Source: Geobacter sp. (lineage in GTDB: Bacteria > Desulfobacterota > Desulfuromonadia > Geobacterales > Geobacteraceae). Taken from it: a stretch of 64,000 nt of DNA. The stretch is taken from NCBI GenBank assembly GCA_003574885.1, contig PJFC01000005.1, positions 1 to 64,000 of the forward strand. The letters run 5' to 3'. The position numbers and the translations under genes are program-made. A model generated the notes under the pieces. The model was not told the DNA's origin, ran no database searches, and saw only the letters and a program-made list of their open reading frames with translations. Below, piece after piece: positions 15,328 through 39,464 of this stretch (the first letter of the stretch is position 1; each line of letters begins with the position of its first letter).

Positions 15328-15377
15328 GTATGCGGGGGGGTAACTTCTGCAAACAGGTTCGTCTGGAGAAATAGGTG

Positions 15378-16433: not shown

Positions 16434-16572
16434 GGGTTGTTGCTCGCTAGGATTCGAATGTGCGTCAAATTCCGGGATCGAACGTCTCGGAAACAGTTCA
16501 AGTACTATGGGTTATACCATTATTGCCGATAGATTGCCATACAGAGTCGAGTGACAAGGACCCAGGAGAGGC

Positions 16573-17799: not shown

Positions 17800-17819
17800 T
17801 TGCACGCTATTTTTGTACC

Positions 17820-19385: not shown

Positions 19386-19491
19386 TAGATAAATGTCTCA
19401 TTCAGGCGGCATACATGATGGTGGTCATAATGACGAGAAGCTTTTTTTCTGCCCTGAAAAAGGTTATGTCTAAGGCATGTACAAGGATCCA

Positions 19492-20988: not shown

Positions 20989-21267
20989 GGATGAGGAGCG
21001 GAATCTCTGCTTATCTGGTTCATACTCGTGAGCACGTTTGTGGGGCTCAGTTTGATGAACCGACTGGATGTGGGGGTCCGCTACCCGTTGCCGGCGTAGC
21101 CATTATTGTGCTATCTTTAAGTCACTGTTTTGCGGACTGCTTCGACCGTAAGTGCTGATGGACGGTGCTACTGACGGTGCTAACCCCCTTGGTTTGCTTG
21201 GAGCCACAGAGAGCAGGGTGGCAATTCAATCATGATTTTTCGCATCAGGTAAAGGGAAGGGGATTCG

Positions 21268-22893
21268 GTGGAGATTGGCAGGAAAACCGTAATTTCAAGC
21301 GCTGTTGCGGCGGGATTGATCACTCTGCTGGTTTACCTCCGGGCGCTCACCTGCGGGTTCGTCAACTTTGATGATCCCTTCTATGTTGTGCAAAATTTCG
21401 ATATACGGCATCTCGACGGGAGCCTTTTCGCTAAGGCGTTCACCACGCCTTTCGTTGAATTATGGATGCCGCTTACCTGGATTTCCCTTGCCATTGACTA
21501 TCATTTCTGGGGCTTGAATCCGGCGGGGTACCACCTGACGAATATCCTTCTCCATGCCGTCAATACGGGGCTGGTGGTACTCATCACCGACAGGCTCTGC
21601 AGGGAAAGGTTCGTTGCGTCCGGCGGTCCCCGGTACCTATATCCCGGTATGTTGCTCCTGGCGGGGCTTCTGTTCGGCATTCACCCGCTGCGGGTAGAGT
21701 CGGTAGCCTGGGTTGCGGAGAGAAAGGATGTCCTGAACGGGGTGTTTTCCCTTGGCTCGATCCTCTGTTACTTGCGGTACGTGCAACTGAGAGAAGCGGA
21801 GAGCAGAGATGCTGCTGTCTGTTCATACGCGTTATCCCTGGTTTTTCTGTTGATGTCTTTGATGGCCAAACCGGTGAGCGTAGTCATACCTGCGATGCTT
21901 CTGGTGGCAGACTGGTACCCTCTGGGACGGTTGCGTCAGGGGAGATTCATGGCGGTGCTGCTGGAGAAGATCCCTTTTTTCGCTCTCTCGGCAGCATCTT
22001 CACTCCTGACCGTTTACTTCGCACGGCAGATACATATCATGGTACCGCAGAGCGACCTTTCCATTGTGCAGAGGTTCGTGCTGTCGGGTAATGCTGTTTT
22101 TGAATATTGCAGGATGCTGCTGTATCCGGTGGGACTCCTTCCTCTCTATCTGATACAGAAACCCATTCCTCTTGCGTTCGCAGTTGCAACAGCCCTGGTT
22201 GTCATCTTCACCTGCATCTGTCTGTATTTCGCGAGAAAGGCACCATGTCTCACGGCTACCTGGCTCTGTTTCCTCATTCCTCTGTTGCCCGTGCTGGCTT
22301 TTTTCCAAAATGGTGTTCAGGCTTTTGCCGCCCGCTATACCTATCTCCCGTCAGTGGTGCTCTGCGTTACGTCTGCTGCCATGATTGCCGAGGCTTACCG
22401 GTCGGTGGTGAAAGCCGGTCGTGAATATATGCGGTTTGTTATTACCGGATTTATGTTGATTCTTCTTTTGTGTTATGCGGGGATGACGGAACATCTCATC
22501 GGTTCGTGGAAAAACACTGAGACCCTCTGGACAAGGGTCATCAACATCAAACCGATCGGGAGAGCATTTTACTTCCGGGCAGAATATTACCTGGAGACCG
22601 GGAAGTATCAGGCTGCGGCTGAGGATCTGCTGATATCGATCCGCATTGCGGAGCGTGCGGGTAACCCGGAGGCGTTCAACCTCTATGCGCTTCGGGGAGA
22701 TGCACTGCGCAAAGCGGGGCGTCATGAGGAGTCGGTGCGGGATTTTACGGCTGCTATCGAGAGGTATCCGGAACTTAACTATTTCTATCACCGGGGACTT
22801 GCGCTGAAGGCAATGGGCAAAGGGAACGAGGCTGAAGAGGACTTCAGGCGAGCTGGCACGGCGACCGGTCCCCTCGAGTGGGTCAATTTGTAG
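21268..22893 (+). CDS. TMTC-like membrane protein with C-terminal TPRs, paralogue 1
   Basis: 541 residues from a GTG preceded by a purine-rich AAGGGAAGGGG. The N-terminal membrane half has the signature of bacterial TMTC-like proteins: FVNFDDPFYVVQN in the first loop, LTWISLAIDYHFWGLNPAGYH, then HPLRVESVAWVAERKDVLNG. Eukaryotic TMTC proteins are O-mannosyltransferases with TPR tails. Here about 120 C-terminal residues form two or three TPR-like helices (YFRAEYYLETGKYQAAAEDL, LRGDALRKAGRHEESVRDF). It is the first of three tandem paralogues. Likely membrane glycosyltransferase of the GT-C fold; acceptor unknown. Confidence 0.75.
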   Translation: MEIGRKTVISSAVAAGLITLLVYLRALTCGFVNFDDPFYVVQNFDIRHLDGSLFAKAFTTPFVELWMPLTWISLAIDYHFWGLNPAGYHLTNILLHAVNTGLVVLITDRLCRERFVASGGPRYLYPGMLLLAGLLFGIHPLRVESVAWVAERKDVLNGVFSLGSILCYLRYVQLREAESRDAAVCSYALSLVFLLMSLMAKPVSVVIPAMLLVADWYPLGRLRQGRFMAVLLEKIPFFALSAASSLLTVYFARQIHIMVPQSDLSIVQRFVLSGNAVFEYCRMLLYPVGLLPLYLIQKPIPLAFAVATALVVIFTCICLYFARKAPCLTATWLCFLIPLLPVLAFFQNGVQAFAARYTYLPSVVLCVTSAAMIAEAYRSVVKAGREYMRFVITGFMLILLLCYAGMTEHLIGSWKNTETLWTRVINIKPIGRAFYFRAEYYLETGKYQAAAEDLLISIRIAERAGNPEAFNLYALRGDALRKAGRHEESVRDFTAAIERYPELNYFYHRGLALKAMGKGNEAEEDFRRAGTATGPLEWVNL

Positions 22894-22997
22894 TGTATAT
22901 ACCAATCGTCCGGCGAAAAGCGGTGCAGAGTGCCAGATGTTTTGATGTACTGTGCTTATACGGCACATCGTGCAAAACCTGACATGGTGGAGATGCG

Positions 22998-24644
22998 GTG
23001 AGAGTTTACAGAAAGACCACGGCCATGTTGGCGCTTATAGCGGGGCTGATCTGCCTGCTAGTCTATTTGCGGGCGCTCTCCTGCGGGTTTGTTAACCTCG
23101 ACGACCCGGACTACGTGCTGAACAATCCGCTGATCCGGCAACTGGATGGTGAGTTGTTTCGTGCGGCATTCACCCAGGCACATGTGGGGTGGTGGATGCC
23201 GCTGACCTGGATTTCCCTTGCGGTGGACTATCACTTCTGGGGGCTGAATCCGGTCGGCTACCACCTGACCAATATTCTGCTGCATACCGTCAATACCGGA
23301 CTGGTCGTTCTCATTGCCGACCGCCTCTACCGGCATGCACTGCCGGAGTCGCTCCGGAAGGGGAATCACCGCCTTCTCTATCCGGCGACCCTGCTGCTGG
23401 CCGGCCTCCTCTTCGGACTGCACCCGTTACGGGTAGAGTCGGTGACGTGGGTGACGGAGCGCAAGGATGTTCTGAACGGCCTGTTTTCGCTGGGGGCCGT
23501 CGTCTGCTACCTGCGCTATGCTGAACGGGCACGGGAGAGCAAGGGAGCGGGCAGGCTGTACGTTGCCTCCCTGGGGTTCTTTATCTGTTCGTTGATGGCC
23601 AAGTCGGTAAGTGTTGTGCTTCCGGTGATGCTGCTGGTGCTGGACTGGTACCCCCTGGGGCGCTGGCGGCAGGGGGTACCAGTCCGGCAATTGCTGGGTG
23701 AAAAACTTCCCTTTCTGGTCCTGTCGCTGTTGATGTCGGCGGCAACCATGTATTTCACGGCACAGACCCAGTACCTCGTTTCCTACGACATCTTCCCGTT
23801 CTCGCAGCGGTTGGTCGTTTCTGGTACGGCGATTGTCGAGTACTGTCGTCTGCTACTGGTACCGGTAGGGATCATTCCGCTGTTCATGATTCCCGATCCG
23901 ATACCGTTTGACTATACCGTCAAGGCGATTGTTGCTGGCGTCATTTGCATCGGCATCTATCTCGGCCGAAAACATGTCTGGCTGCCGGCAACCTGGCTGA
24001 CCTTCATCTTCCCTCTGCTGCCCGTGTTGGCGTTCTTTCAGAATGGCGATCAGGCCTATGCTGCCCGCTTTACCTATCTTCCGTCGCTGGGGCCGAGTAT
24101 TGCCGCTGCCGGTCTGCTGGCTGTCGGATACGGGAGGTTGGCGCGATTGTCCCGCTGGGGTGGTGGGCTGTTGGTCACTGCGATCATGGTGCTGCTCATG
24201 TGGTATGCCGGCATGACGCTCCGGCTCATTGCCGTCTGGGACAATCCGGGAACACTCTGGTCGAGGGTGATCGCTGTTGAGCCGGGGGCCCAGGCCTACA
24301 AGGAACGGGGCGTCTACCATTACAATACTGGCAACCATGCCGCAGCGGTGGACGATTTCACGCAGGCGATCAGTCTCGTAACGAGCGTCTGGCGACCGTA
24401 CGTCTACAATCTTTACGCGTATCGTGGCGAGGCATTGTGGGCGGCGGGACGTTATAGCGAGGCGATACAGGACCTTACTGCGGCAATCGACCTCAATCCG
24501 CGACCGTCGTATTACCACTATCGCGGACTTTCCTTGCAGGCGTTGGGCCGGGGACAGGATGCCGCCGAAGATTTCCGTCGCGCCGGGCCGGCTCCGGGGT
24601 CGATCGACTGGTACTGGGATGCACGTAAAGACAACAAAAAATAG
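22998..24644 (+). CDS. TMTC-like membrane protein with C-terminal TPRs, paralogue 2
   Basis: 548 residues from GTG 22998, with GGTGGAGA upstream. It keeps every landmark of its neighbours: FVNLDDPDYVLNN, AHVGWWMPLTWISLAVDYHF, HPLRVESVTWVTERKDVLNG, and a tail with TPR-like units (ERGVYHYNTGNHAAAVDDF, YRGEALWAAGRYSEAIQDL). Its 3' end overlaps the likely start of the third paralogue by 26 bases, so the two are probably translationally coupled. Retention of three copies suggests distinct acceptors or sugars, though dosage is also possible. Confidence 0.75.
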   Translation: MRVYRKTTAMLALIAGLICLLVYLRALSCGFVNLDDPDYVLNNPLIRQLDGELFRAAFTQAHVGWWMPLTWISLAVDYHFWGLNPVGYHLTNILLHTVNTGLVVLIADRLYRHALPESLRKGNHRLLYPATLLLAGLLFGLHPLRVESVTWVTERKDVLNGLFSLGAVVCYLRYAERARESKGAGRLYVASLGFFICSLMAKSVSVVLPVMLLVLDWYPLGRWRQGVPVRQLLGEKLPFLVLSLLMSAATMYFTAQTQYLVSYDIFPFSQRLVVSGTAIVEYCRLLLVPVGIIPLFMIPDPIPFDYTVKAIVAGVICIGIYLGRKHVWLPATWLTFIFPLLPVLAFFQNGDQAYAARFTYLPSLGPSIAAAGLLAVGYGRLARLSRWGGGLLVTAIMVLLMWYAGMTLRLIAVWDNPGTLWSRVIAVEPGAQAYKERGVYHYNTGNHAAAVDDFTQAISLVTSVWRPYVYNLYAYRGEALWAAGRYSEAIQDLTAAIDLNPRPSYYHYRGLSLQALGRGQDAAEDFRRAGPAPGSIDWYWDARKDNKK

Positions 24645-26241
24645 CACGGCGCATGTGGCGCTGGTTGCCGGCTTGATTTGCCTGCTGGTCTATCTTCGGG
24701 CACTCGGGTGCGGCTTCGTCAATTGGGACGATCAGGACTATATCCTTAACAATGCAGCCATCAGGAGCCTCGACGCAAACCTGGTTACCTGGGCGTTCAC
24801 TAACCATGTCGTTGGTTGGTGGATGCCGCTGACCTGGCTGTCGTTTGCGCTTGACTACCATTTCTGGGGGCTTAATCCGCTTGGGTACCACCTGACGAAC
24901 ATCGTCCTCCATGCAGTCAACACGGGACTGGTGGTTCTTATCGCAGCTCGCATCGGCAATTATACTGTTCCGGAGTCCGTTCCGGATTGCTCACGCTGGT
25001 TGACTACGGGTTCGTTGCTTCTGGGAGGGCTACTGTTTGGCATCCATCCGCTGCGGGTAGAATCGGTAGTCTGGGCGACGGAGCGCAAGGATGTTCTCAA
25101 CGGCCTCTTTTTTCTCGGGGCCATCCTCGCCTATCTGCGTTATGTGCGGAAACATGATACGGGGTCGCCGGGAGCGATGCGCGATTACCTCTTTGCAGTT
25201 GCCCTGTTCTGCTGTTCCCTGATGGCCAAGCAGGTAAGCGTCGTCATGCCCGTTATGCTGCTGGTTATGGATTGGTATCCGCTCGGGCGGTTGAGGCGCG
25301 TAGGGCTTCGAGCGGTACTTCTGGATAAGATTCCGTTCTTTGCTTTTTCTGTAGCCATGACGGTTTTTACGCTCACGATCGCCGTGCAGGACAACGTCCT
25401 GGCAAATCTGTCATTCGGACAGAGACTCGTCATCTCCGGCAATGCTGTCTTCGAGTATATGCGGCTCCTGCTGTATCCGGTTGGAATCATCCCGGTCTAC
25501 ATTATCCCCCAGCCCATTCCGGTGGCCTATACCGCGAAAACGGTTGTTGTCATGCTTGTCTGCGTCGGGATTGTTGCCAGCTGGAAGAGGGCGTGGCTCC
25601 CGTCACTCTGGCTCTGTTTTCTGCTGCCATTAGTGCCGGTGCTTGCCTTCACCCAGAACGGGATTCAAGCCTTTGCGGCCCGATTTACCTATCTTCCGTC
25701 CGTGGCCCCGGCCATAGCGGCTGCACTGGTGCTCATTGTCTTCTGTCGGAAACTTGTTGGTGAGGTGGGTAGAGGGAAGCAGTTATTCGTCATGGGTCTG
25801 CTGGCGATGGTGCTGATGATTTACGGAGTGACGACGCAGCGTCTCATCGGGGTATGGCACAACTCGGGAACGTTCTGGACCCGGGTGATCGAGTATCAGC
25901 CCTTTGACAGGGCATTTTTTTATCGGGGCCTGTTTTATGTGGATGAGGGGAACTATCAGGCTGCAGTGACCGACTATACAACGAGCCTGGCATTGGCTCT
26001 GTCAGATGGTTTTCCCGAGGCGTTCAATATCTATGCGTTTCGTGGAGAGGCGTTTGCCAAGGCCGGACAATATACGGATGCCGTGGCTGATTTCACGAAT
26101 GCCATTGAACGTTCTCCACAGCCGCTCTATTTTTATCACCGTGGACTGGCGTTACAGGCACAGGGGAGGATGGCGGACGCTGCAGCTGATTTCCGGCGTG
26201 CCGGTCAGGCTCAGGGCCAGATGCGTTGGTTCCCGCAATAG
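24619..26241 (+). CDS. TMTC-like membrane protein with C-terminal TPRs, paralogue 3
   Basis: I place the start at ATG 24619, giving 540 residues that line up with the 541- and 548-residue paralogues. A longer open frame back to 24424 only adds an Arg-rich sequence that is a shadow of the upstream gene. Landmarks are FVNWDDQDYILNN, NHVVGWWMPLTWLSFALDYH, HPLRVESVVWATERKDVLNG, and TPR-like YRGLFYVDEGNYQAAVTDY and FRGEAFAKAGQYTDAVADF. It closes the glycosylation-type cluster, followed by about 200 bases without a gene. Confidence 0.75.
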   Translation: MHVKTTKNSTAHVALVAGLICLLVYLRALGCGFVNWDDQDYILNNAAIRSLDANLVTWAFTNHVVGWWMPLTWLSFALDYHFWGLNPLGYHLTNIVLHAVNTGLVVLIAARIGNYTVPESVPDCSRWLTTGSLLLGGLLFGIHPLRVESVVWATERKDVLNGLFFLGAILAYLRYVRKHDTGSPGAMRDYLFAVALFCCSLMAKQVSVVMPVMLLVMDWYPLGRLRRVGLRAVLLDKIPFFAFSVAMTVFTLTIAVQDNVLANLSFGQRLVISGNAVFEYMRLLLYPVGIIPVYIIPQPIPVAYTAKTVVVMLVCVGIVASWKRAWLPSLWLCFLLPLVPVLAFTQNGIQAFAARFTYLPSVAPAIAAALVLIVFCRKLVGEVGRGKQLFVMGLLAMVLMIYGVTTQRLIGVWHNSGTFWTRVIEYQPFDRAFFYRGLFYVDEGNYQAAVTDYTTSLALALSDGFPEAFNIYAFRGEAFAKAGQYTDAVADFTNAIERSPQPLYFYHRGLALQAQGRMADAAADFRRAGQAQGQMRWFPQ

Positions 26242-26438
26242 GAGAGTTGGATCATTGAACGCTCTCCTTGTCTAAACATTTAATATCTAAGGGGAGAATG
26301 ATTAAGGGGGGACACATCTGTCGTCATACTGGCCGTATTTTCAAGTACAACTTGTTGCGGTTTCGTCAATTTGAACGGTTTCAGATTGTCGGAACAGCAA
26401 TCGATTTCAACTATAGTGGGAGGATTGGGAGGATATAA

Positions 26439-27449
26439 ATGAAAAACCTTATATTTTTTACGGCAATGGTTATGGTAGCAATCAGCATTACAGCATATGC
26501 GAAGGATGTGACTACCAGCGTTGAGGATATGAAGGCCGATCTTGGCGGGCCGACACAGCAAAAGAAAAACAACGGCAAGGTCCTCAAATGCGTGCATAGA
26601 GGGACGAAGCAAGTGACCATATCTTTCGACGGCGAGTCAACTGCCTATAAAGCGATGTATCTCAACTGTCGGGAAAATGGGACGGTGCGGGACGGCATTT
26701 TTGAAATCATAAAGAAAGGGGATGCCGTGGTGGCAAATACTGCCAAACGTTCCGTGAATGGTGAACTGTTTGATGCGGTGCTTGCTAACGAGATTGGGAA
26801 GGTTAAAACACTTCTCAAAAAGAAGGCGGATGTCAATTATTCGGAGAGCATAAGCAAGGCCAAAGGTGGTGCCATAGATGAATGGACGCCGCTCATGTCT
26901 GCCGTCATGAACGAAAATATCGAGATGGTTAAGCTGCTTGTCGGAGCCGGAGCCTGGGTGAACTACATGAACAGCGAAGTAGTCAATGCCCTGTGGTTGG
27001 CGGCTAACAAGGGGAATCTCGCCATTGTAAAATACCTGGTAAAGAACGGGGCGTATATCGATAACCAAGGGGTTGATGACATGACACCTCTTATGATAGT
27101 TGCAATCAACGGGAATCATGCAATCACTGAATTTTTGGTCAAATCAAAGGCACGTTTGAATTTGAAGCACAAGGATGGGGACAGTGCGTTGATGTTTGCC
27201 GTATCACGCGGACGCACGGATATTGCGGAATTTCTTATAGATTCGGGAGCGGATGTAAACATTCAAAACAAGTATGGCATTACTGCTTTGATAATTGCCT
27301 CTGTGGAGGGAAATTCTGGAATTGTGGAAAAGCTGGTAAACAGCAAGGCCGATCAGACCTTGAAAACCGATTTTGGAAAAACGGCGTTGGAAATCGCAAC
27401 CGCCAAGGGTCATACAAAGATAGTTGAACTGCTTACGCAGCACCGGTAG
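26439..27449 (+). CDS. Exported ankyrin-repeat protein
   Basis: 336 residues from ATG 26439 after GGGAGGAT. A signal peptide (MKNLIFFTAMVMVAISITAYA) is followed by about 80 residues without repeats. From residue about 105 there are roughly six ankyrin repeats with the usual helix-loop wording (TPLMSAVMNENIEMVKLLVGAG, then NALWLAANKGNLAIVKYLVKNG, TPLMIVAINGNHAITEFLV, and so on). Periplasmic ankyrin proteins usually bind protein partners; the partner is unknown. It is transcribed with the downstream genes' strand but separated from them by more than 400 bases. Confidence 0.85.
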   Translation: MKNLIFFTAMVMVAISITAYAKDVTTSVEDMKADLGGPTQQKKNNGKVLKCVHRGTKQVTISFDGESTAYKAMYLNCRENGTVRDGIFEIIKKGDAVVANTAKRSVNGELFDAVLANEIGKVKTLLKKKADVNYSESISKAKGGAIDEWTPLMSAVMNENIEMVKLLVGAGAWVNYMNSEVVNALWLAANKGNLAIVKYLVKNGAYIDNQGVDDMTPLMIVAINGNHAITEFLVKSKARLNLKHKDGDSALMFAVSRGRTDIAEFLIDSGADVNIQNKYGITALIIASVEGNSGIVEKLVNSKADQTLKTDFGKTALEIATAKGHTKIVELLTQHR

Positions 27450-27877: not shown

Positions 27878-28669
27878 ATGGGAAAAATTGGGTGTTTTCT
27901 GGTTGCCGCTGTGCTCTTTTGTACGGCGACCACGGTTTTTGCCGAAGATGTCAGGACAGGAACAATCACCGGCAAGATGATGATCAAGAATGGTGGCCCG
28001 ATGGCAAACGGTGTCGTCTTCTTCTTCAATGAGGCTTCCGGGCCTCCACCGTCACCCGAAAAGTATTGGCGGGTGCCGGATGAGATTGTTGGTACCGATG
28101 GTGAGGGGAATTTCAAAGCGGTACTGCTGGAAGGAAAGTACTATCTGGGGGCAAGCAAGCGAAAATCGGGGCAGGAGGTTGGCCCTCCTCACGAAGGGGA
28201 TTACTTCCTCCCGGCGATGGAAGAAAAGGGTGTTCCCAAGACATACCGTGTGGAAAAAAGCAAGGCGACTGATATCGGTACCATAGCGGAAGCGGTTCCT
28301 TTTTCCCGGGCAACCATCAAGACCAAAAATGGTACTACCGCCATCGAAGGGACCATTACCGATGCTGACGAAAAACCTCTGGAAAGGGCCATGGTGTTTG
28401 CGTTCCTGACCCCTGCCATGGTGGGGAAACCTCTCTTCGTCTCCGAGCGGACGGGAAAGGACGGGAAATACCTTCTCCGGGTCAATCAAGGCGGGAATTA
28501 TTATCTCAAGATCAGGGAAGTGTATGGTGGCGGTGCACCGAAAGTAGGGGAGATTATGGGAGGGTACGGACAGGACAAGCCTGTCCCGGTGACCATAACA
28601 ACGGGGACCACCGTAAAGGGAATAGATATAAAAGGGGTACGCTTTCTCGGGCGCGGACCCAATAAGTAA
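27878..28669 (+). CDS. Exported protein with carboxypeptidase-regulatory-like domains
   Basis: 263 residues with a clear signal peptide (MGKIGCFLVAAVLF... ending VFA-EDV) and a strong purine-rich ribosome site. Two beta-sandwich units of the carboxypeptidase-regulatory type can be seen: residues about 28-105 (GTITGKMMIKNGGPMANGVV, then GNFKAVLLEGKYYLGA) and about 145-230 (IEGTITDADEKPLERAMVF, then GKYLLRVNQGGNYYLK). Such domains are non-catalytic and often mediate surface assembly. It lies just before the peptide gene at 28764 and resembles the protein at 31400, so the two may act together. Function unknown. Confidence 0.75.
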   Translation: MGKIGCFLVAAVLFCTATTVFAEDVRTGTITGKMMIKNGGPMANGVVFFFNEASGPPPSPEKYWRVPDEIVGTDGEGNFKAVLLEGKYYLGASKRKSGQEVGPPHEGDYFLPAMEEKGVPKTYRVEKSKATDIGTIAEAVPFSRATIKTKNGTTAIEGTITDADEKPLERAMVFAFLTPAMVGKPLFVSERTGKDGKYLLRVNQGGNYYLKIREVYGGGAPKVGEIMGGYGQDKPVPVTITTGTTVKGIDIKGVRFLGRGPNK

Positions 28670-28697
28670 TTTATACTCCATTCAAATCTTTCTGTAT

Positions 28698-28726
28698 TTA
28701 CCTTTGGCGTTCAGACATTGTATACT
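28698..28726 (+). promoter_or_regulatory. Candidate sigma-70 promoter for the VHPC peptide/GeoRSP unit
   Basis: TTTACC and TATACT are separated by exactly 17 bases, 38 bases before the peptide start codon. The -10 matches five of six consensus bases; the -35 is weak. Placement right after the upstream gene fits a new transcription unit starting with the peptide. Confidence 0.4.
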
Positions 28727-28763
28727 GGCATCGATAACGATGAAGAGGAGGTACTCCCAAGCG

Positions 28764-28826
28764 ATGAAAAGAAAAAAGTATGTCAGCCCAAGAATTGTGG
28801 CGAATGCCGTGGTACATCCCTGCTGA
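28764..28826 (+). CDS. 20-residue YxxP...VHPC peptide, candidate RiPP precursor (divergent form)
   Basis: Encodes MKRKKYVSPRIVANAVVHPC. A strong AGGAGGT lies 12 bases upstream, rather far, but no better start exists. Aligned without gaps to the peptides at 13454 and 47414 it keeps M-K at positions 1-2, Tyr6, Pro9, Val12, Ala15, and Val17-His18-Pro19-Cys20, while its DNA is quite different. Length and the C-terminal VHPC are exactly conserved. It is followed 20 bases later by a terminator, then by a co-directional gene series that contains the PqqD-like, radical SAM and SPASM genes. I read it as the cognate precursor of that maturation system. Translation and modification are inferred. Confidence 0.7.
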   Translation: MKRKKYVSPRIVANAVVHPC

Positions 28827-28846
28827 TGCCGTTGTGACCTTTGGAG

Positions 28847-28884
28847 AGAGGCACTGGACCCGTTTCCGGTGCCTCTTTTATTAT
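28847..28884 (+). terminator. Terminator/attenuator after the divergent peptide gene
   Basis: AGAGGCACTGGA pairs with TCCGGTGCCTCT (one G-U pair), followed by TTTATTATTA. It separates the peptide from the beta-helix gene that starts 20 bases later. Partial read-through would give much peptide mRNA and little enzyme mRNA, a common precursor-to-enzyme arrangement. Confidence 0.85.
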
Positions 28885-28904
28885 TATCAGGTACTCTGCG
28901 AACA

Positions 28905-31403
28905 ATGAAAAAACTCGTGAATAATCTTTCAGCTGCATGGTTACGCAATGCAATGATGCTTGCGTTTTTTATTGTCGCTTCCCCGTGTGGTGTGCATGCC
29001 GGCGTTATTACGACGGACACCGTCTGGCAGGGTGAGGTCAGGGTCACCGAGGATGTGCTGGTGCCGGAAGGGATTACTCTTACCCTCAGGCCGGGAACCA
29101 CTGTCAAGGTGGTTGCGGCGGAAAGTACGAAGACCGACCCCGAATATGTGTCCCCCTTGACGGAGATAACGGTCCGGGGAGTGCTCAGGGCTCAGGGGAC
29201 GTCAAATTCCCCCGTGGAATTTTCCGGAGAGGAGAAGAGGGCGGGAAGCTGGGCAGGAATAGTGGTCGACCAAGGCACTGCTGTCCTGGAGGGGTGCAGG
29301 ATAGAGCATGCAGAGACGGCGGTTCACGTATTTGATGGTAATCTCCGGCTGAAAGACTCAATCATCAGGGAAAACCGCTACGGTGTGGTGGCCCAGGGGG
29401 AAAAGGGCAAAATTGCGGTTGAAAATTCCCGCATTGCCGACAATGACTACGGCCTTTTTTCCCTTCAGGGTGCGCACATCGTAACCGCGGCTTCTGTCGT
29501 CAAGATAAACAGGAAAAAGGACGTCTACTCCGCCTCCGGCAAGGGGCACCGGTCGGAAGCATCCCCTGTCGCTGCTGGCGATATCCCCGTTGGCAGAAGG
29601 TATAAAGATGAAGCACTGCGAGGTGACACCGTCTGGCAGGGGAGGGTTGAAGTTGGCGGTATCGTCCGGGTGCCGGAGGGGAGCAGGCTGATTGTCCTGC
29701 CGGGAACGATCGTCGAATTCTCAAAAAAGGATACCAATGGTGATGGTATCGGTGAAAACGGCCTCCAGATCCAGGGGCGTCTCATTGCCAAGGGGACCCG
29801 GGAGCATCCCATCATTTTCCGGTCTGCCGAAAATGGGAAAAAAATGGGGGACTGGGACGCTATTAATATCATGAATAGTGACAGTGCCCAGAACCTCATC
29901 GAGTATTGTCGGATAGAGCACGCGTATCGAGGACTCCATTTTCATTTTTCCTCAGTAGTGGTGCAGAATTCGGTACTGACGAACAACTATCGTGGTGTCC
30001 AGTTCCAGGAGTCGTCGGTCGAAATGAAGGGGAATCATCTCTACGCCAATAAAAGCGGCGTTCAGGGGAGAGACTCGGATATAACCTTCTTCGATAATGT
30101 TATCGCTGACAACTATGTGGGCGCCAATTTCTTCCGTACCAATATCACCGCCCGTGGCAACAGGATTGTGGGGAATCTGAAGGAAGGGATGAGGATCCGG
30201 GAAGGGGTGTCGTCACTTCAGGAAAACCTTTTCGACGGCAACCGGCACGGTCTCATGGTGGCGGACACCTATTACGGCGATTACAGCCGTAATAGCGTCA
30301 CCAACAATCTGGAAACCGGGCTCTCCCTCAAAAATGTGGACAATGTTGAGATCCTGGGGAATGTTATTGCTGCAAACGGTATCAATGGTTTGAATGTCCA
30401 GGATACCCGGGCAATCATCAAGGGGAACCAGATAGCCGACAATGGCGAACGGGGGATGGGGATCATCTCCTTTGACGGGGTGATCACGGAGAATAATTTC
30501 ATCGCCAACGGCCTGTACGCCATAGACCTGGATGGTATGAAGGATATTTCCGCGCCCTCTAACTGGTGGGGGGGGGGTGACGTTGACACGGCTATCTTTG
30601 ACAGGAAGGATGATCCTTCACGAGGCCGTGTCGCGTATGAAAAAGCGAGCGATGGCCCATTCTCTTTTCCCTGGCCCTTGCGATCCGTTTCGACGGATAC
30701 GACGTGGCGTGGCGTCGTTACCGTGAAAAACACCGTGACCGTTCTTCCCGGAGCTGTTCTGACGGTTGTGCCGGGGACAAGGGTAGCCTTTTCTCCGGGG
30801 ACCGGCCTTGCCATTAAAGGCAGAATAATTGCAAGGGGAAGGGGTGACCGGAAGATCGTTTTCACGTCGGAGCAGGGTACTGATGCATCCGCATGGGATG
30901 AGATACTGCTTGAATACGCCACCGGCAGCGAAATAGCCCACGCTGTTTTTGAATATGCAACATGGGGTATCCATTGCCATTTCACCAATCTTTCCATCAC
31001 GGACTGTCATTTCAAGAAAAATTACGGGGGTATGCGGTTCAGAAGCGGCCCCGTCCAGATTGCCCGTTCGGTATTCGAGGATAATGTAATCGGCATCAGG
31101 GCGTACATCGGAAATGCCGTTATTCGGGAGAACAGAATAACAAAAAACGAAACGGGTATTTTTGTCCGCGAAAAAGGGGGAGGGCTGACCATCACGCGGA
31201 ATAACATCTTTGACAACAGCAACTACAACATCCGCGTTGGGGATTTCAATAACGAAGATATCGACGCCAAGGAAAACTGGTGGGGAACCGTTAACCCTCT
31301 TCAGACCATATTTGACGGGAGGAGTGAGCCTGGCATAGGGAATGTCCTGTTCGAGCCATCCCTCAGGGAGCCGGTAAAGCCGGGGGGTAACGAACTGCTA
31401 TGA
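28905..31403 (+). CDS. Exported right-handed beta-helix (NosD-like) protein
   Basis: 832 residues from ATG 28905, which begins the signal peptide (MKKLVNNLS..., cleavage near VHA-GVI); an upstream in-frame ATG at 28869 lies in the terminator. The body is three similar blocks, each opening with a TTDTVWQGEVRV-like beta strand and a VPGTTV/LPGTIV turn. Each continues into many short N-rich rungs (GNRIVGNLKEGM, NNLETGLSLKNVDNVEILGN) typical of parallel beta-helices in the NosD/carbohydrate-binding group. SNWWGGGDVDTAIFDRKDDP and ENWWGTVNPLQTIFDGRSEP close blocks two and three. A short homologue lies at 35115. Probably a periplasmic or surface scaffold; catalysis is not evident. Confidence 0.82.
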   Translation: MKKLVNNLSAAWLRNAMMLAFFIVASPCGVHAGVITTDTVWQGEVRVTEDVLVPEGITLTLRPGTTVKVVAAESTKTDPEYVSPLTEITVRGVLRAQGTSNSPVEFSGEEKRAGSWAGIVVDQGTAVLEGCRIEHAETAVHVFDGNLRLKDSIIRENRYGVVAQGEKGKIAVENSRIADNDYGLFSLQGAHIVTAASVVKINRKKDVYSASGKGHRSEASPVAAGDIPVGRRYKDEALRGDTVWQGRVEVGGIVRVPEGSRLIVLPGTIVEFSKKDTNGDGIGENGLQIQGRLIAKGTREHPIIFRSAENGKKMGDWDAINIMNSDSAQNLIEYCRIEHAYRGLHFHFSSVVVQNSVLTNNYRGVQFQESSVEMKGNHLYANKSGVQGRDSDITFFDNVIADNYVGANFFRTNITARGNRIVGNLKEGMRIREGVSSLQENLFDGNRHGLMVADTYYGDYSRNSVTNNLETGLSLKNVDNVEILGNVIAANGINGLNVQDTRAIIKGNQIADNGERGMGIISFDGVITENNFIANGLYAIDLDGMKDISAPSNWWGGGDVDTAIFDRKDDPSRGRVAYEKASDGPFSFPWPLRSVSTDTTWRGVVTVKNTVTVLPGAVLTVVPGTRVAFSPGTGLAIKGRIIARGRGDRKIVFTSEQGTDASAWDEILLEYATGSEIAHAVFEYATWGIHCHFTNLSITDCHFKKNYGGMRFRSGPVQIARSVFEDNVIGIRAYIGNAVIRENRITKNETGIFVREKGGGLTITRNNIFDNSNYNIRVGDFNNEDIDAKENWWGTVNPLQTIFDGRSEPGIGNVLFEPSLREPVKPGGNELL

Positions 31404-32104
31404 AGCGAATGTTTCTGTACCTTGCACTGTCGATGGCAGTATGTGTCCTGGCCTTGTCTCTCAATGGCTTTGCCGCTGAAACCTCCCGTCTGAAGGGAAC
31501 GGTTCTCGATAGCGAAGGGAGACCCGCCGAGGGGGCCAAACTGTTTATTTACGGCAGCTCGAATGTGAAACGGCAGGCCGACTTCATATCGCCGATGTCC
31601 GGCAGCGACGGGCGCATGCTGATTACCTTGCCGGCAGGAAGATACTGGGCAGTGGCAAGGTTGAAAAAAGATGGTAATTACGGGCCGCTCATGCCGGGGG
31701 ACAAGCATTCGGGAGAACCGGTCGAGATAGACATGGAAGCCGGCAGGGATACCGAGGCCAGTTTTGTGGTCGCCGATATCCGCGAGGTCGGCCAGAAGAA
31801 GCGAGCTGATACTGCAAATTCGGTGAGATTGTGGGGTCGGGTCGTTGACGCCCAGGGGAATCCCGTTGCCAACGCCTATGTCTTTGCCAACAGGGAAAAG
31901 GATGTTGACTACGTTCCTGACTATCTCTCGCCATGGACCGACGAGACGGGCAATTACTCCCTTTCCATTCCTGCAACGGGAAGATACTTCGTCGGAAGTG
32001 TCCGGCAATTCCCTCTTCCTTCGAAAATCACCCTGACCAGGGAGGTTGTTCCCGTGCCGGGGAAATCGGATATTGCCTTGGATCTTCAATTAATAGTATA
32101 TTGA
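31400..32104 (+). CDS. Exported carboxypeptidase-regulatory-like protein
   Basis: 234 residues. Its ATG overlaps the stop codon of the beta-helix gene (ATGA), so the two are translationally coupled. A signal peptide (MKRMFLYLALSMAVCVLALS... FAA-ETS) leads into two regulatory-like beta-sandwiches: LKGTVLDSEGRPAEGAKLFIYG with DGRMLITLPAGRYWAVA, and LWGRVVDAQGNPVANAYVFAN with TGNYSLSIPATGRYFVGS. It resembles the protein at 27878. No catalytic residues are seen; likely an adhesion or assembly partner of the beta-helix protein. Confidence 0.75.
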   Translation: MKRMFLYLALSMAVCVLALSLNGFAAETSRLKGTVLDSEGRPAEGAKLFIYGSSNVKRQADFISPMSGSDGRMLITLPAGRYWAVARLKKDGNYGPLMPGDKHSGEPVEIDMEAGRDTEASFVVADIREVGQKKRADTANSVRLWGRVVDAQGNPVANAYVFANREKDVDYVPDYLSPWTDETGNYSLSIPATGRYFVGSVRQFPLPSKITLTREVVPVPGKSDIALDLQLIVY

Positions 32105-32167
32105 CAGGGTAGATTTATGCTCAAGAATGAGCGTTTCACTGGTCGCAAATCCATATGGGAGTGAAAA

Positions 32168-32716
32168 ATGAAACAGGTTATTTCATGGTGTCTCGTCGTA
32201 TTGATCCTCGCTGTTGCAACTATCTCCTCTGCCTGTGTCGGCAAGACAATCCATCTCGGGGTTACCAATGCCGCCAGTGAGCGTTTGCTGGCAGAGATGG
32301 CGTCGCTTCTGATTTCCGAGCGGACCGGTTCTTCTGTCAAGATTGATGTCTACAAGGACTCGAAAGAACTGTACAACGCCCTCAGGCAGGGGAGCGTGAA
32401 CGTTATTTTCGAAAACACCGGTCGTGCGGCGGAGATTGTCGGGAAGCCCAAGGATTCAACATACGACCAGATCAAGAGCGAGTACAAAACAAAACTGAAC
32501 CTCACGTGGCTTGAACAGATCGGCGGCTCCCTGAAGTTTGCGCCGGTCCTGACGGCGGATACACTCGCCAACTACCCGGCCCTCCCCAAACTGTTGAACA
32601 AACTTTCCGGGGCGTTGGTAAACGACACCTATGCAAAGCTGCTCAAGTCTGCGGAGTCGAGTGAAAAGTCGAAAAAGACGGCAAAAGAATTCCTGAAGGG
32701 AAAGAAGCTGATATAA
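32168..32716 (+). CDS. OpuAC-like (glycine-betaine-type) substrate-binding domain protein
   Basis: 182 residues with a signal peptide ending near SSAC-VGK; the Cys could be a lipidation site but the lipobox is imperfect. The mature part begins KTIHLGVTNAASERLLAEMAS and continues ISERTGSSVKIDVYKDSKELYNALRQGSVNVIFENTG, like the first lobe of osmoprotectant-binding ABC proteins (OpuAC/ProX). At this length only about half of a usual binding protein is present, and no ABC ATPase or permease is nearby. A role outside transport, for instance ligand sensing or assembly, is likely. Confidence 0.6.
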   Translation: MKQVISWCLVVLILAVATISSACVGKTIHLGVTNAASERLLAEMASLLISERTGSSVKIDVYKDSKELYNALRQGSVNVIFENTGRAAEIVGKPKDSTYDQIKSEYKTKLNLTWLEQIGGSLKFAPVLTADTLANYPALPKLLNKLSGALVNDTYAKLLKSAESSEKSKKTAKEFLKGKKLI

Positions 32717-32720
32717 CGGG

Positions 32721-33647
32721 ATGGCGATACCCGAGGGAATGAAGAAGAAAATATCCTGGCTGGCATCAACCGAATGTGCGGTTGTACTGTTCCTGGCGAT
32801 TGCCATTTTGGCCATCCCAGGGACTTTTACCGAAAGCAGGGCCATCTATTCAAGTCCTCTGTTCATGTCGCTTCTGGGCTGTTTCGGGCTGAACCTGGTG
32901 CTCTGCACCGTGAAGCGGCTCAAAACCCTATCCAAACCTGTTCTGATCATGCATTGCGGTGTTATCCTCACGTTGGCGGGATGTATTGCCACCTCCTTCG
33001 GCTATGTGGCGACCGTCAATGTCTACGAAGGGAGTATGGTTGACCAGGTCTACCGGTGGGACAAAAAGCAAGACGTCCCTCTCGGGGCGGAACTGGTGGT
33101 GAAAAAGGTCAACCGGGAGTATTATCCCATACCGGTAAAGGTCGGTGTTTTGCGGGGGGATGCGAAGGATGGTCTTTTTGTCCTGAAAACGGGGGGAAGC
33201 TTCGACCTGAAAAACTACCGGGTCAAGGTCGAGGCCCTGGAATTCCCGGCGGAAAACCTGAAGCTTTCCGTATTTGATCAGGGCCGGTTGATGGGAACCT
33301 GTGATACTGCGGGGGCCTCAACCCTACCCCCAGGGTTTCCCTATGGATTCAAGCTGGTGGCCTACCAGAATCCTTCATTGAAGAGGCTCTGGGTTGACCT
33401 GGCCCTTGCCCGCGATTCGGAAAAGCCGGTCGAGGGGACTTCCGAGGTCAACAGCCCGTTTCAGTGGAACGGCCTCTATTTTTACAACACGCGGATTGAC
33501 CGGGATGCTGCCGGTGCAGTGTATGCCGGTATTCAGATCGTGCGGGATCCGGGAAGACCCTATGTCTTTGCCGGTTTTGCCATCATGGGCCTTGGGGCGG
33601 TATTGTCCTTCATAAGGCGCTTTTACGGGAAGGTTCTATGGAAATGA
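32721..33647 (+). CDS. ResB-like cytochrome c biogenesis protein
   Basis: 308 residues, starting four bases after the previous stop. Two N-terminal membrane segments (VVLFLAIAILAIPGTF, and LFMSLLGCFGLNLVLCTVKRLK), a third near residue 85 and a C-terminal one flank a periplasmic beta-rich domain (VNVYEGSMVDQVYRW... VNSPFQWNGLYFYNTRIDRD). This matches ResB of the system II (ResBC/CcsBA) cytochrome c maturation pathway, which delivers heme to apocytochromes outside the membrane. No ResC/CcsA gene adjoins it. In this series it suggests a heme- or thiol-handling step tied to the peptide system or to the multiheme proteins. Confidence 0.75.
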   Translation: MAIPEGMKKKISWLASTECAVVLFLAIAILAIPGTFTESRAIYSSPLFMSLLGCFGLNLVLCTVKRLKTLSKPVLIMHCGVILTLAGCIATSFGYVATVNVYEGSMVDQVYRWDKKQDVPLGAELVVKKVNREYYPIPVKVGVLRGDAKDGLFVLKTGGSFDLKNYRVKVEALEFPAENLKLSVFDQGRLMGTCDTAGASTLPPGFPYGFKLVAYQNPSLKRLWVDLALARDSEKPVEGTSEVNSPFQWNGLYFYNTRIDRDAAGAVYAGIQIVRDPGRPYVFAGFAIMGLGAVLSFIRRFYGKVLWK

Positions 33648-34561
33648 CGAGTTCGGGGATGTTCGGCATCTATATCGCCGCCTTTTTTCTGGGTGCCGCA
33701 CACTCGCTTGAGCCGGGGCATGGGAAAACGGTGGTGGCCGCCTATCTGGTCGGTTCACGGGGAAGAAATATCGACGCCATCATTCTTGGCCTTGTCGTTA
33801 CGTTTACCCATTCCTTCAGTATCATCCTCCTGGGGCTTCTTGCGAAATTTTCCGCCCGCTACCTGACTGAACAGGAGGTTCATGCCTATCTCGGGATCGT
33901 TGCAAGCCTCATTATCCTGGGTATCGGCCTCTGGATGCTGCGGCAGCGGTGGGTCTGCATGAGAGACCCTGCCCGTGCCCATGACCATTTTCACCTTTTC
34001 GGCCACAGCCACAGCCACCATGGCGACAACCATAACCAGAACCACGACCATGGCCATGATCATGACCACCCCCATGACCATCCACACACCCATGATGACT
34101 CGGACCATGACCACGACCACCATGGGCACGGAAACGATCATGGCCACGACCATAGCCATGGGGGGCACGACCATGGAGATGCACACGCTCATTCCCACAA
34201 TCACCATGGACACGGTCACCATCACCCTGCCGGCGACAAACCGCTCGGTCCGTTCGGACTGATCATGCTGGGAATATCCGGCGGAATTATCCCTTGCCCG
34301 GCAGCCTTGGCAATTCTGCTCGCATCGGTATCCGTCGGACAGGTTGCAAAAGGTCTTGTCATGGTCCTTGTCTTCAGTCTCGGTCTTGCCGCCTCTCTCG
34401 TCGCCATTGGGCTTGCGGTGGTCAACGGCGTTAAAGCGACGAAGCGCTTTCTGGATACGGAGCGTTATGCTCCCAAGATCGCCTTTGCGAGCGCCCTCAT
34501 CGTTACGCTCATCGGTATCGTCACCATGTATACGTCGATCAGCCATTTCAGGCAGCTATGA
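33638..34561 (+). CDS. NicO/RcnA-like nickel-cobalt transporter with a very His-rich loop
   Basis: 307 residues, overlapping the ResB-like gene by 10 bases. The first membrane segments carry FLGAAHSLEPGHGKTVVAAYLVGS, the HxLxPGHGKT signature of the NicO/RcnA family, which moves Ni(II) or Co(II). Residues about 110-200 form a loop made largely of His, Asp, Gly and Asn (34000-34230), far longer than in many relatives, likely a metal-buffering domain. The C-terminal half has GISGGIIPCPAALAILLASVSVGQ and LAASLVAIGLAVV. Metal identity and direction of transport are not visible. It suggests that a divalent metal is needed by, or must be cleared from, the compartment where this system works. Confidence 0.82.
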   Translation: MEMTSSGMFGIYIAAFFLGAAHSLEPGHGKTVVAAYLVGSRGRNIDAIILGLVVTFTHSFSIILLGLLAKFSARYLTEQEVHAYLGIVASLIILGIGLWMLRQRWVCMRDPARAHDHFHLFGHSHSHHGDNHNQNHDHGHDHDHPHDHPHTHDDSDHDHDHHGHGNDHGHDHSHGGHDHGDAHAHSHNHHGHGHHHPAGDKPLGPFGLIMLGISGGIIPCPAALAILLASVSVGQVAKGLVMVLVFSLGLAASLVAIGLAVVNGVKATKRFLDTERYAPKIAFASALIVTLIGIVTMYTSISHFRQL

Positions 34562-35112
34562 AATATTTTATCTCTCTTTGCATACTCGCTCTTCTCGTTG
34601 TTCCGCACGCAGTTTATGCCCATCCTGAGACCGGCCTGCTCCCTGACGCCATTGCTGAAACCGAATACAAGATCGTGCTGGAGATTAACCCCAAGGATAT
34701 CACGACCAGGACCAAGCTCGGAATGGTCCTGTACCGGAAGAACAAGCTGAAAGAGGCGGAACAGCAGGTTTCCGAGGTGCTGAAGTCGGCTCCGAACGAT
34801 TTCGATGCCCATGATGTAATGGGACTCATCAGGCTGAAGGAGAATAAACCGGCCGAGGCCATTGCCTGGTTAAAGAAAGCAATCGCCCTGAAAAACGAGG
34901 ATACCATGGTGCATCACAGCCTTGGCCTTGCGTTCGAGCAGGCTGGACAGTACCGGGAGGCCGAGGCGTCCTATCGTCGGGGGCTGGAGGTCAATGACCG
35001 GCTGCTCAGGAAGGGGACGAACCGGGAGAAAGAGAAGGAGCGTCGGAATACGCTTCTCTCTGCATTACAGGGTGTCCAGACCAGGCTGAAAACATCACGA
35101 GGGGGGATTTGA
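34558..35112 (+). CDS. Exported TPR protein
   Basis: 184 residues with an ATGA overlap to the transporter gene. Signal peptide MKYFISLCILALLVVPHAVYA, then about four tetratricopeptide units (TRTKLGMVLYRKNKLKEAEQQV, then FDAHDVMGLIRLKENKPAEAIAW, MVHHSLGLAFEQAGQYREAEAS). A basic tail follows. TPR proteins are protein-protein adaptors; here it lies between the metal transporter and the second beta-helix protein. Partner unknown. Confidence 0.8.
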   Translation: MKYFISLCILALLVVPHAVYAHPETGLLPDAIAETEYKIVLEINPKDITTRTKLGMVLYRKNKLKEAEQQVSEVLKSAPNDFDAHDVMGLIRLKENKPAEAIAWLKKAIALKNEDTMVHHSLGLAFEQAGQYREAEASYRRGLEVNDRLLRKGTNREKEKERRNTLLSALQGVQTRLKTSRGGI

Positions 35113-35114
35113 TC

Positions 35115-36098
35115 ATGCACGCAACCGTGCGGCAGATGCTGCTTGCCGTTGTTACCGTAGCGCTCATTACGTTGTCCGGCGAGTGTCGGGCAGCAACAGT
35201 TGAAACTGGCAAGGTGACACTCACGAAGGACACCACCTGGGAGGGTGACATCGTGATCACCGGTGATGTCCATGTTCCCGAGGGGGTCACCCTGTTCATC
35301 ACGCCCGGCACGACGGTAAGGTTCAGAAAGATAGCTCCTGACGGTGACCGTAATCTTTTCGGGGTCGAATCCCCCTATTATCCCCAAGCAGAGATTATCG
35401 TAACCGGACGGCTCGTTGCAAAGGGGACGACCGAGAGACCGATCCTCTTCACATCGGCTGAAGTGAATCACGAGCCTGCCGACTGGGGGTCCCTCAATTT
35501 TCTGGGGAGTAAAGGGAATGTGGTTGAACACTGCCGGATTGAATATGCCTATAACGGGGTCCACTCCCACGGCGGACAGGTTCTTGTCAAAGATTCTACC
35601 TTTGTGAAAAATGCCGTGGCCATCAGTGTCAAGAAGGAAGACGCGGCGGTCGGGACCCCCGGCTTCGGCATCCCGGCCGACATCACGGTCACCGGCAACC
35701 TCATCGAGGACAACAAGGGTGGCATAAACGTCCGCATCTCAAAGGCGAAAATCACCAGCAATACTATCCGCGGCAACAAGTTCTTCGGCATCTGGATTAA
35801 GGGAAAGTGCGATGGGGAGATCAGCCGCAACGAAATTACCGCCAACCAGAAGGGGATTTTCTTCTACAAGGCCGGTGGGATGATCATCAAGGATAACAAT
35901 ATCTTCGGTAACATTGACTACAACCTTGCCATCGCCGACGAACAGGGGAAGGATATCCCGGCTGCCGGCAACTGGTTTGGCATGACAGACCGGTCGAAGA
36001 TCGAGGAGTTGATCTTCGACGGCAAGGCAGACCCTTCTCTTGCCCGGATCATTGTTGCGCCGTTCCTGACGGAGCGTGTCGGGGATGCGGGGAGGTAG
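35115..36098 (+). CDS. Exported right-handed beta-helix (NosD-like) protein, short form
   Basis: 327 residues from ATG 35115, which has GGGGGG upstream; the TTG at 35109 is less likely. Signal peptide to about ECRA-ATV. The layout repeats one block of the protein at 28905: TLTKDTTWEGDIVITGDVHV, FITPGTTVRFRK, WGSLNFLGSKGNVVEHCRIEYA, then N/G-rich rungs ending AAGNWFGMTDRSKIEELIFDGKADP. It sits nine bases before the PqqD-like gene, so it belongs to the GeoRSP unit. Perhaps it presents or exports the modified peptide, which is speculation. Confidence 0.8.
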   Translation: MHATVRQMLLAVVTVALITLSGECRAATVETGKVTLTKDTTWEGDIVITGDVHVPEGVTLFITPGTTVRFRKIAPDGDRNLFGVESPYYPQAEIIVTGRLVAKGTTERPILFTSAEVNHEPADWGSLNFLGSKGNVVEHCRIEYAYNGVHSHGGQVLVKDSTFVKNAVAISVKKEDAAVGTPGFGIPADITVTGNLIEDNKGGINVRISKAKITSNTIRGNKFFGIWIKGKCDGEISRNEITANQKGIFFYKAGGMIIKDNNIFGNIDYNLAIADEQGKDIPAAGNWFGMTDRSKIEELIFDGKADPSLARIIVAPFLTERVGDAGR

Positions 36099-36107
36099 GA
36101 GTTACCC

Positions 36108-36422
36108 ATGTCCACCATACACCGCAACCCCAATGTCATGTGGCGCGAGGAAGATGATGCCCTTGCCGAAGCGGGCGACGCCCTTGCCCGCGGCGAGGAT
36201 GCCGGCGAGATCGGCACCGCAGTGCTCTTTTCCGGCGGCACCATGCTGTCGGTCAACTACCTCGGCATGGAAATCTGGAAACTGTGCGACAACCGGACCG
36301 TTGACGGGATCGTGGCCGCACTGCTGGAGCAGTTCGAGGTGGAAGAAGACGTGCTTCGTGCCGATGTTCGTGCATTTCTCGACGAACTGGCCGTGAAAGG
36401 TTTCATCGTCTATGCAGAATGA
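36108..36422 (+). CDS. PqqD-like peptide chaperone of the GeoRSP system
   Basis: 104 residues with the compact winged-helix PqqD layout: N-terminal PNVMWREEDDALAEAG, then AVLFSGGTMLSVNYLGMEIWKLCDNRT (the beta-strand and helix pattern seen as 'LNxxGxxIWxL' in PqqD), VDGIVAALLEQFEVEEDVLRADV, and LAVKGFIVY. PqqD-like RRE domains bind precursor leaders and hand them to a radical SAM partner. It overlaps the radical SAM gene by 11 bases. I recognise this order as the three-gene GeoRSP system of Geobacter. The natural ligand is not known to me; the YxxP...VHPC peptides are the best local candidates. Confidence 0.88.
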   Translation: MSTIHRNPNVMWREEDDALAEAGDALARGEDAGEIGTAVLFSGGTMLSVNYLGMEIWKLCDNRTVDGIVAALLEQFEVEEDVLRADVRAFLDELAVKGFIVYAE

Positions 36423-37434: not shown

Positions 37435-37480
37435 CCCCCTGCGGTCTGCCCGCAGCGGTTCATGGCCGAGGAACATCTGC

Positions 37481-38344: not shown

Positions 38345-38378
38345 CTACCACATTAATGCATCACTACAGGAACCCATC

Positions 38379-39284: not shown

Positions 39285-39294
39285 CCTGAATCTA

Positions 39295-39443: not shown

Positions 39444-39464
39444 CAGACTAACTACTGAGATGCT

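Follow-up and report, generated by a model that had tools for sequence, protein, structure and literature searches.

The 64,000-nucleotide stretch of Geobacter sp. DNA analyzed here (assembly GCA_003574885.1, contig PJFC01000005.1, positions 1 to 64,000, hereafter the window) carries three very short peptide genes, each of 20 codons plus a stop and each ending in Val-His-Pro-Cys (VHPC), together with the genes of the radical S-adenosylmethionine (SAM) maturation system GeoRSP, of which the peptides are probably the substrates. The peptide genes lie on the forward strand at 13454-13516, 28764-28826 and 47414-47476. The first and the third encode the same peptide, MKKQTYTKPKVVGSANVHPC; the second, MKRKKYVSPRIVANAVVHPC, is the window copy closest to the GeoRSP cluster. 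Ribosome sites were read from the sequence as AAGGAG at 13440-13445 and 47400-47405 and as AGGAGG at 28746-28751. Terminator-like hairpins follow the genes at 13529-13560, 28844-28879 (before a NosD-like gene) and 47499-47527, where shuffled versions of the three regions gave only 0.2-0.3 such hairpins on average. The initial annotation had described three 20-codon genes with a ribosome site and a terminator each; all were present, with AGGAG-type sites and hairpins just 3' of the frames, and the residues it had listed as common to the three peptides (Tyr6, Pro9, Val12, Ala15 and the terminal VHPC) were borne out. A fourth copy, MKKAKYVAPKVVGSATVHPC, was found on a different contig of the same genome. 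Neither of the two window peptides matched any model in NCBIfam or Pfam.

The GeoRSP genes themselves are adjacent and on the same strand. They encode a PqqD-like protein (36108-36422, TIGR04302, E 1.7e-48), which is a predicted peptide-binding element of the kind found in pathways for ribosomally synthesized and post-translationally modified peptides (RiPP recognition element, RRE), a radical SAM/SPASM enzyme (36412-37434, TIGR04303, E 1.9e-187) and a SPASM-only protein (37412-38344, TIGR04304, E 2e-106). Their scores of 163, 622 and 355 bits exceed the NCBIfam cut-offs of 100, 400 and 300 bits, respectively. Among the NCBIfam models, those that come next after the enzyme's own are AhbD, NirJ2 and the mycofactocin enzyme. 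The peptide gene at 28764 had been proposed to head this series of genes. This holds insofar as it is the copy nearest to the cluster, but it is itself preceded by a gene for a 263-residue protein (27878-28669), and a hairpin stands before the next gene. Related loci, 60 in all, were collected from named genomes with strict seed patterns; they came from Geobacter and its relatives, other Deltaproteobacteria and Nitrospirota, and one was from Bacterium BMS3Bbin08. The PqqD-like gene was matched in 58 and the SPASM gene in 59 of these loci, some of which are cut by contig ends; these and all locus counts below were obtained by tblastn with a threshold of E 1e-4, and domains related to one another contribute some cross-matches, such as the SPASM matches at L144 and L164 at least, which fall within the radical SAM gene. 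A comparison of GeoRSP with viral contigs gave 43 loci, every one a partial match of 24-34% identity, and plasmids gave no match at E 1e-60.

Judged by their nucleotide variation and ribosome sites, the short frames look like translated genes under protein-level selection. Among 126 distinct nucleotide versions, the mean entropy was 0.61, 0.57 and 1.58 bits at the first, second and third codon positions, respectively, with the columns of Tyr, Pro and His-Pro-Cys-stop fixed by construction, as the collecting pattern demanded them. Because the variation is concentrated at third positions, the frames are more than chance occurrences. Residues outside the pattern are conserved as well, namely Val in 108/126, Gly in 118/126 and the Val preceding His in 119/126. 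The peptides are 18-21 residues long, with 20 residues in 88 versions and 19 in 35. Context was counted at 127 loci; the 132 first collected had included five duplicates read in the other orientation. A ribosome site was found 5' of the peptide in 125/127, and a terminator-like hairpin 3' of it in 74/127, compared with 16/127 control stretches taken 300 bases further on. A conserved regulatory RNA was also considered for the window; the Rfam search returned only a SAM riboswitch (RF00162, 59728-59941, minus strand, 61 bits), and at the gathering threshold no Rfam family matched at the peptide loci.

The distribution of the peptide follows that of GeoRSP closely. It was surveyed in 141 genomes of the window's order, with TIGR04303 above cut-off taken as GeoRSP, and with a peptide profile made from 24 peptides of the window's family only, which contains no Nitrospirota sequence; matches in the order were accepted at E < 1e-6. 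Within the family (48 genomes), the window peptide was found in 12 genomes and TIGR04303 in 12, with 11 common to both. In the whole order, 33 genomes carry both, two only GeoRSP, five only the peptide and 101 neither. Two weak matches were excluded, G108 (E 0.043) and G110 (E 0.0059), neither with GeoRSP; their inclusion raises the peptide genomes from 38 to 40 and the carriers among the 106 genomes without GeoRSP from five to seven. The same pattern was obtained for the 29 genera of the order, where 13 have both, none GeoRSP only, one the peptide only and 15 neither (Fisher p 2.1e-7). In a second phylum, Nitrospirota, 385 genomes were sampled: 25 have both, one GeoRSP only, four the peptide only and 355 neither. 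Here the peptide was counted in 29 genomes and GeoRSP in 26, 25 of them above cut-off and one represented by a fragment at the end of a contig. Starting from GeoRSP loci, 31 Nitrospirota genomes were reached, 29 of which have the peptide, and the merged set holds 39 distinct GeoRSP genomes of this phylum, 37 of them with the peptide. The genome-level Fisher p values, 1.7e-24 for the order and 4.9e-34 for Nitrospirota, overstate the evidence, since the test assumes independent genomes. The genus-level p value and the second phylum are the safer guides.

The initial annotation had stated that its proposal would fail if the peptide were missing from most GeoRSP genomes or common in genomes lacking GeoRSP. 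Instead, the co-occurrence with maturation enzymes that is expected of a RiPP precursor was observed in 33/35 and 25/26 GeoRSP genomes, as against 5/106 and 4/359 genomes without GeoRSP. Of the peptide-only genomes in the order, G004, G061, G064 and G100 are 66-81% complete, and G103 is 97% complete. The nine peptide-only genomes of both phyla were scanned for remnants of GeoRSP. A SPASM gene was found in G530; G192 gave a weak SPASM match, and the other seven gave none at E 1e-20. In G530, the SPASM gene (E 8e-84) lies 0.7 kb 3' of the peptide, and a shortened NosD frame occupies the interval, an arrangement that can be read as a deletion or an assembly fault.

Physical linkage points in the same direction. 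In 12 of the 35 GeoRSP genomes of the order, no more than 15 kb separate a peptide from the radical SAM gene, whereas copy number and genome size would lead one to expect 0.68 such genomes by chance; in 11 of the 12, the peptide is upstream on the same strand. In 10 genomes of the order besides that of the window, a family member precedes GeoRSP on the same strand by 5.7-10.9 kb, and the peptide is also upstream of GeoRSP in the Nitrospirota loci L131, L257 and L275. At the last of these, a homologue of the 27878 gene (46% identity), the peptide, NosD (51%), CarboxypepD_reg, OpuAC-like and ResB-like genes stand in the order of the window; the next genes are the phosphonate-type, TPR and YedE genes, and the PqqD-like, radical SAM and SPASM genes lie beyond them. 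At L256, the peptide lies 78 bp 3' of the radical SAM gene, and no separate SPASM gene was seen at that locus. A variant peptide of genome G119 ends in VYPC (L277:8027); it is located 3' of a cytochrome gene with the C-terminal tail described below and 9.6 kb ahead of the GeoRSP radical SAM gene.

The third line of evidence concerns leader recognition. A single-chain model of the GeoRSP PqqD-like protein was obtained with a predicted local distance difference test (pLDDT) score of 95.9. The solved proteins closest to it in sequence are TbiB1, PbaB1 and LppB; in structure, its closest neighbors are leader complexes of TbiB1 and TfuB1 (Z 12.1, 11.9 and 11.3), followed by a methyltransferase domain (Z 10.1) and PqqD (Z 9.7). 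Lasso and LPP RREs recognize leaders of the type [Y/W]xxPx[L/V/I/F/A] according to PMC13381572, which for LppB describes a bond from D70 to the Tyr, a kink at the Pro held by N33 and packing of F74 onto the Pro. The VHPC peptides carry Tyr-x-x-Pro-[KR]-[VI]. In a HMMER alignment, D86, N50 and F90 of the window RRE align with D70, N33 and F74 of LppB; the LppB numbers of that article were mapped with an offset of 18, and the residues named in the stretch agree with it. All three residues are invariant in 56/56 PqqD-like homologues, drawn from the 58 loci with a match. Recognition of the YxxP motif by the PqqD-like RRE, as proposed in the initial annotation, therefore fits both the nearest solved relatives and the invariant contact residues, although it is a prediction from sequence and model. 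The LppB leader pairs with its RRE to about nine residues past the Tyr. A footprint of this size, if transferred to GeoRSP, would leave roughly the last five residues (x-Val-His-Pro-Cys) free for the enzyme.

Since peptide and GeoRSP occur in nearly identical sets of genomes in two phyla, the VHPC peptides are very probably GeoRSP substrates. That they are its precursor peptides, which was the central claim of the initial annotation, is well supported by this co-occurrence, the linkage and the fit between motif and RRE, and we consider it probable.

The peptide genes are scattered, with one to about 15 copies per genome. The two Nitrospirota genomes G149 and G150 (L267, L269-L271) hold 14 and 15-16 peptide genes, respectively, many of which encode an additional Cys (VCVHPC); many of these genes are interleaved with genes for proteins of about 270-650 residues, of which one scanned neighbor is a CarboxypepD_reg protein. 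In the window, peptide gene 1 follows the gene of a 1732-residue multiheme cytochrome (8167-13365, 11 CxxCH), peptide gene 2 that of the 263-residue CarboxypepD_reg protein mentioned above, which has a putative signal-like N-terminus, and peptide gene 3 that of a 1577-residue multiheme cytochrome (42581-47314, 11 CxxCH), all on the forward strand. Both cytochromes end in a related tail, which was identified by alignment and profile search at 13123-13362 (alignment A5; ending CHDTSKAGRSGDTPTYPASQRWNSKTPW) and at 47072-47311. From the first cytochrome region to the peptide gene at 28764, the intervening DNA (13741-27449) holds glycosyltransferase, epimerase, TPR and ankyrin-repeat genes.

A frame caller written for this work found the nearest upstream gene on the strand of the peptide in 110/125 contexts. 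By crude C-terminal patterns, 73/108 upstream genes could be assigned to four exported-looking classes. Pfam annotation of 86 of the 100 available C-terminal pieces gave Paired_CXXCH in 24/86, CarboxypepD_reg in 21/86 and fn3 in 13/86, with possible overlap between families. The cytochrome tail, aligned from 24 of 31 examples, has the consensus GxGRFPxGGG ... PGxWFFGT ... CHxxxTAGGTxYPxxQxWNxKTPW, in which CH, W-N and the final W are invariant. It was found in 27/141 genomes of the order. All 27 carry the peptide and 24 carry GeoRSP, and the three without GeoRSP are 66-81% complete. Of the strong tail matches, 27/35 have a peptide 51-112 bp 3', a figure biased by a profile derived from tails that already adjoin a peptide; of the weak matches, 3/12 do. 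Peptide ends specific to each class of partner were also looked for and rejected: the final eight residues show no division according to partner, and GSAVVHPC occurs with all four named classes.

The remaining genes of the cluster may form an apparatus for export and periplasmic handling. Downstream of peptide gene 2 and on the same strand, the window encodes a NosD-like beta-helix protein (28869-31403, with the true start, by eye, perhaps at ATG 28905; matched in 46/60 loci), a CarboxypepD_reg protein (31400-32104; 47/60), a protein with an OpuAC-like substrate-binding domain (32168-32716; 48/60), a ResB-like protein (32721-33647; 47/60), a NicO/DsbD_2-like protein (33638-34561; 8/60), a first TPR protein (34558-35112; 9/60) and a second NosD-like protein (35109-36098). 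The three GeoRSP genes are followed by those for a phosphonate-type substrate-binding protein (38229-39284), a TPR-like protein, TPR2 (39465-40007), and a YedE-family transporter (40008-41069, TIGR04112), each matched in 40/60 loci. The retention of the YedE-family transporter with GeoRSP hints at a supply of sulfur or selenium for the product. The transporter of the cluster varies: NicO is present in the window, an ArsP_1 permease at L126 (7336-9237) and L148, and a NicO match with an MFS protein at L256 (8246-9547). A small cupin protein is encoded directly before the PqqD-like gene at L126 at least (L126:9296-9616).

These features can be assembled into a mechanism. The first part of the peptide (K..KYxxP[KR][VI]VG) would act as a leader, whose Tyr6, Pro9 and Val/Ile11 would occupy the cleft of the PqqD-like protein in the manner of leaders bound to lasso-type RREs. 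This RRE would then offer the C-terminal residues, approximately VHPC, to the radical SAM/SPASM enzyme, possibly with the assistance of the SPASM-only partner. At this end, the Cys itself may be modified or bind metal, as suggested in the initial annotation. In the manner of PqqA or MftA, the modified end might become a small redox-active or metal/thiol cofactor, although this step is weaker. Such a cofactor could be exported via the cluster transporter and handled by the beta-helix and substrate-binding proteins of the cluster, and extracytoplasmic proteins could then make use of it. With several precursor genes, often behind the genes of clients, the supply of precursor might rise alongside each client. 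What follows the modification, a cofactor serving extracellular proteins, is a proposal by analogy. In its full form, GeoRSP would convert VHPC into a new peptide-derived cofactor, export it and supply it to, or install it on, surface proteins, giant extracellular multiheme cytochromes among them, with a precursor gene behind each and a dedicated tail on the cytochromes; this full scheme is offered tentatively, as one that may well prove wrong.

Several observations weigh against these readings. In 23/35 genomes of the order, many of them assembled in fragments, no peptide was found at 15 kb or less from GeoRSP. Four genomes, G029 and G090 of the order and G158 and G161 of Nitrospirota, have GeoRSP without a convincing peptide, even at a relaxed threshold. 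A diverged peptide was sought in these four with a wider profile (A6, E up to 10), and as small YxxP-type frames in L091, L092, L153 and other GeoRSP loci; only weak partial matches were obtained, except for the VYPC variant of G119. Conversely, the nearly complete genome G103 carries a peptide behind a NifU-like gene but was matched by neither the radical SAM nor the SPASM model of GeoRSP, and the same holds for the peptide-bearing Nitrospirota genomes G232 and G253. A common dependence of peptide and GeoRSP on client proteins could yield equal co-occurrence. In addition, many PQQ and lasso RREs also have the cleft N and D (PMC13381572), and PqqD is listed among RREs with W/Y/LxxP-type motifs (PMC12710340); the contact residues therefore fit YxxP binding and are not a unique proof of it. 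With respect to the clients, 35/108 upstream genes fall outside the four classes, including NifU-like, sigma-54 activator and B12-type radical SAM genes. The nearest downstream gene is likewise on the strand of the peptide in 95/126 contexts, so the upstream pairing is a tendency only. Finally, no peptide follows 8/35 strong and 9/12 weak tails. For the eight strong ones, a reading of the adjoining 3' DNA likewise revealed none; the tail protein can therefore do without a peptide gene of its own.

The peptides may also be GeoRSP substrates without giving rise to a cofactor, the end product being the whole modified peptide, exported as a signal, a metallophore or an antimicrobial-like compound. 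The C-terminal Cys is fixed across copies, as demanded by the collecting pattern and including the one VYPC variant, which would suit such a product, as would the many VCVHPC copies of G149 and G150 and the presence in the clusters of NicO, ArsP_1 or MFS transporters with NosD-type beta-helix proteins. However, the end is conserved without diversification, whereas the cores of antimicrobial peptides usually diversify. The scanned cluster genes include no immunity gene or peptidase-exporter, and genes for exported-looking proteins often stand in front of the peptide genes. This alternative is rather unlikely.

Less likely still is that the peptides are accessory peptides of the clients (cytochromes, fn3 and CarboxypepD_reg proteins) and that GeoRSP modifies the clients themselves, for instance at their C-terminal tails. 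Such an arrangement would account for the frequent same-strand upstream gene, for the confinement of the cytochrome tail to peptide-bearing genomes and for the invariant CH and W-N...W of the tails. It is difficult to reconcile with clients of several unrelated C-terminal types served by one peptide family with an RRE-fitting YxxP motif, with the position of the peptide beside the GeoRSP genes themselves in some genomes, and with the 11/38 peptide genomes of the order in which the tail was not found. A role of the frames as regulatory leader peptides, or their chance origin within a conserved RNA, might be suggested by their shortness and the adjoining hairpin, but is very improbable in view of the third-position variation, the location of the hairpin 3' of the frame and the lack of an Rfam match at the peptide loci at the gathering threshold.

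The precursor assignment would provide a concrete candidate substrate for GeoRSP, an orphan among radical SAM maturation systems. In agreement with the initial annotation, which named no published one, no GeoRSP substrate was found in the open-access literature, most subscription papers lying outside the search. New here is the observation that the gene upstream of the peptide often codes for an exported-looking protein, with cytochromes of a common tail among them. The link with cytochromes, if true, would connect a peptide-derived product with extracellular electron transfer; if the cofactor reading is true as well, Geobacter relatives and Nitrospirota would possess an unrecognized component of that process. 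The case also suggests that radical SAM precursors can sit far from their enzymes, in multiple copies behind client genes and outside the reach of gene-cluster mining.

Among known systems, the pyrroloquinoline quinone (PQQ) pathway resembles GeoRSP in its discrete PqqD-type RRE and its radical SAM/SPASM enzyme, and the best PDB match of the GeoRSP enzyme is PqqE (E 1.3e-19). Its precursor PqqA is likewise very short, but the GeoRSP peptides have a Cys at the end in place of PqqA's Glu/Tyr. GeoRSP further differs from PQQ in its own enzyme family (TIGR04303), the extra SPASM-only protein and several scattered precursor genes. The lasso and LPP systems (TbiB1, PbaB1, LppB, TfuB1) share with GeoRSP the YxxPx[V/I] motif, the RRE fold and the contact residues. 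In contrast to them, GeoRSP uses a radical SAM enzyme, and its whole VHPC precursor is only about the size of a leader. Lasso clusters also encode an asparagine-synthetase-like cyclase and a B2 protease, and no match to either was found among the scanned cluster genes 27878-41069, some of which were scanned with one library only. In the mycofactocin system (MftA/MftB/MftC), the peptide gene is invariably within the gene cluster of the enzymes (PMC3023750). The VHPC peptide genes, in contrast, are mostly outside the cluster, and their neighbors code for exported-looking proteins, not nicotinoproteins. With respect to the GeoRSP families defined in NCBIfam (TIGR04302, TIGR04303 and TIGR04304), the genes of the window are members above the curated cut-offs, and the peptide adds a proposed substrate.
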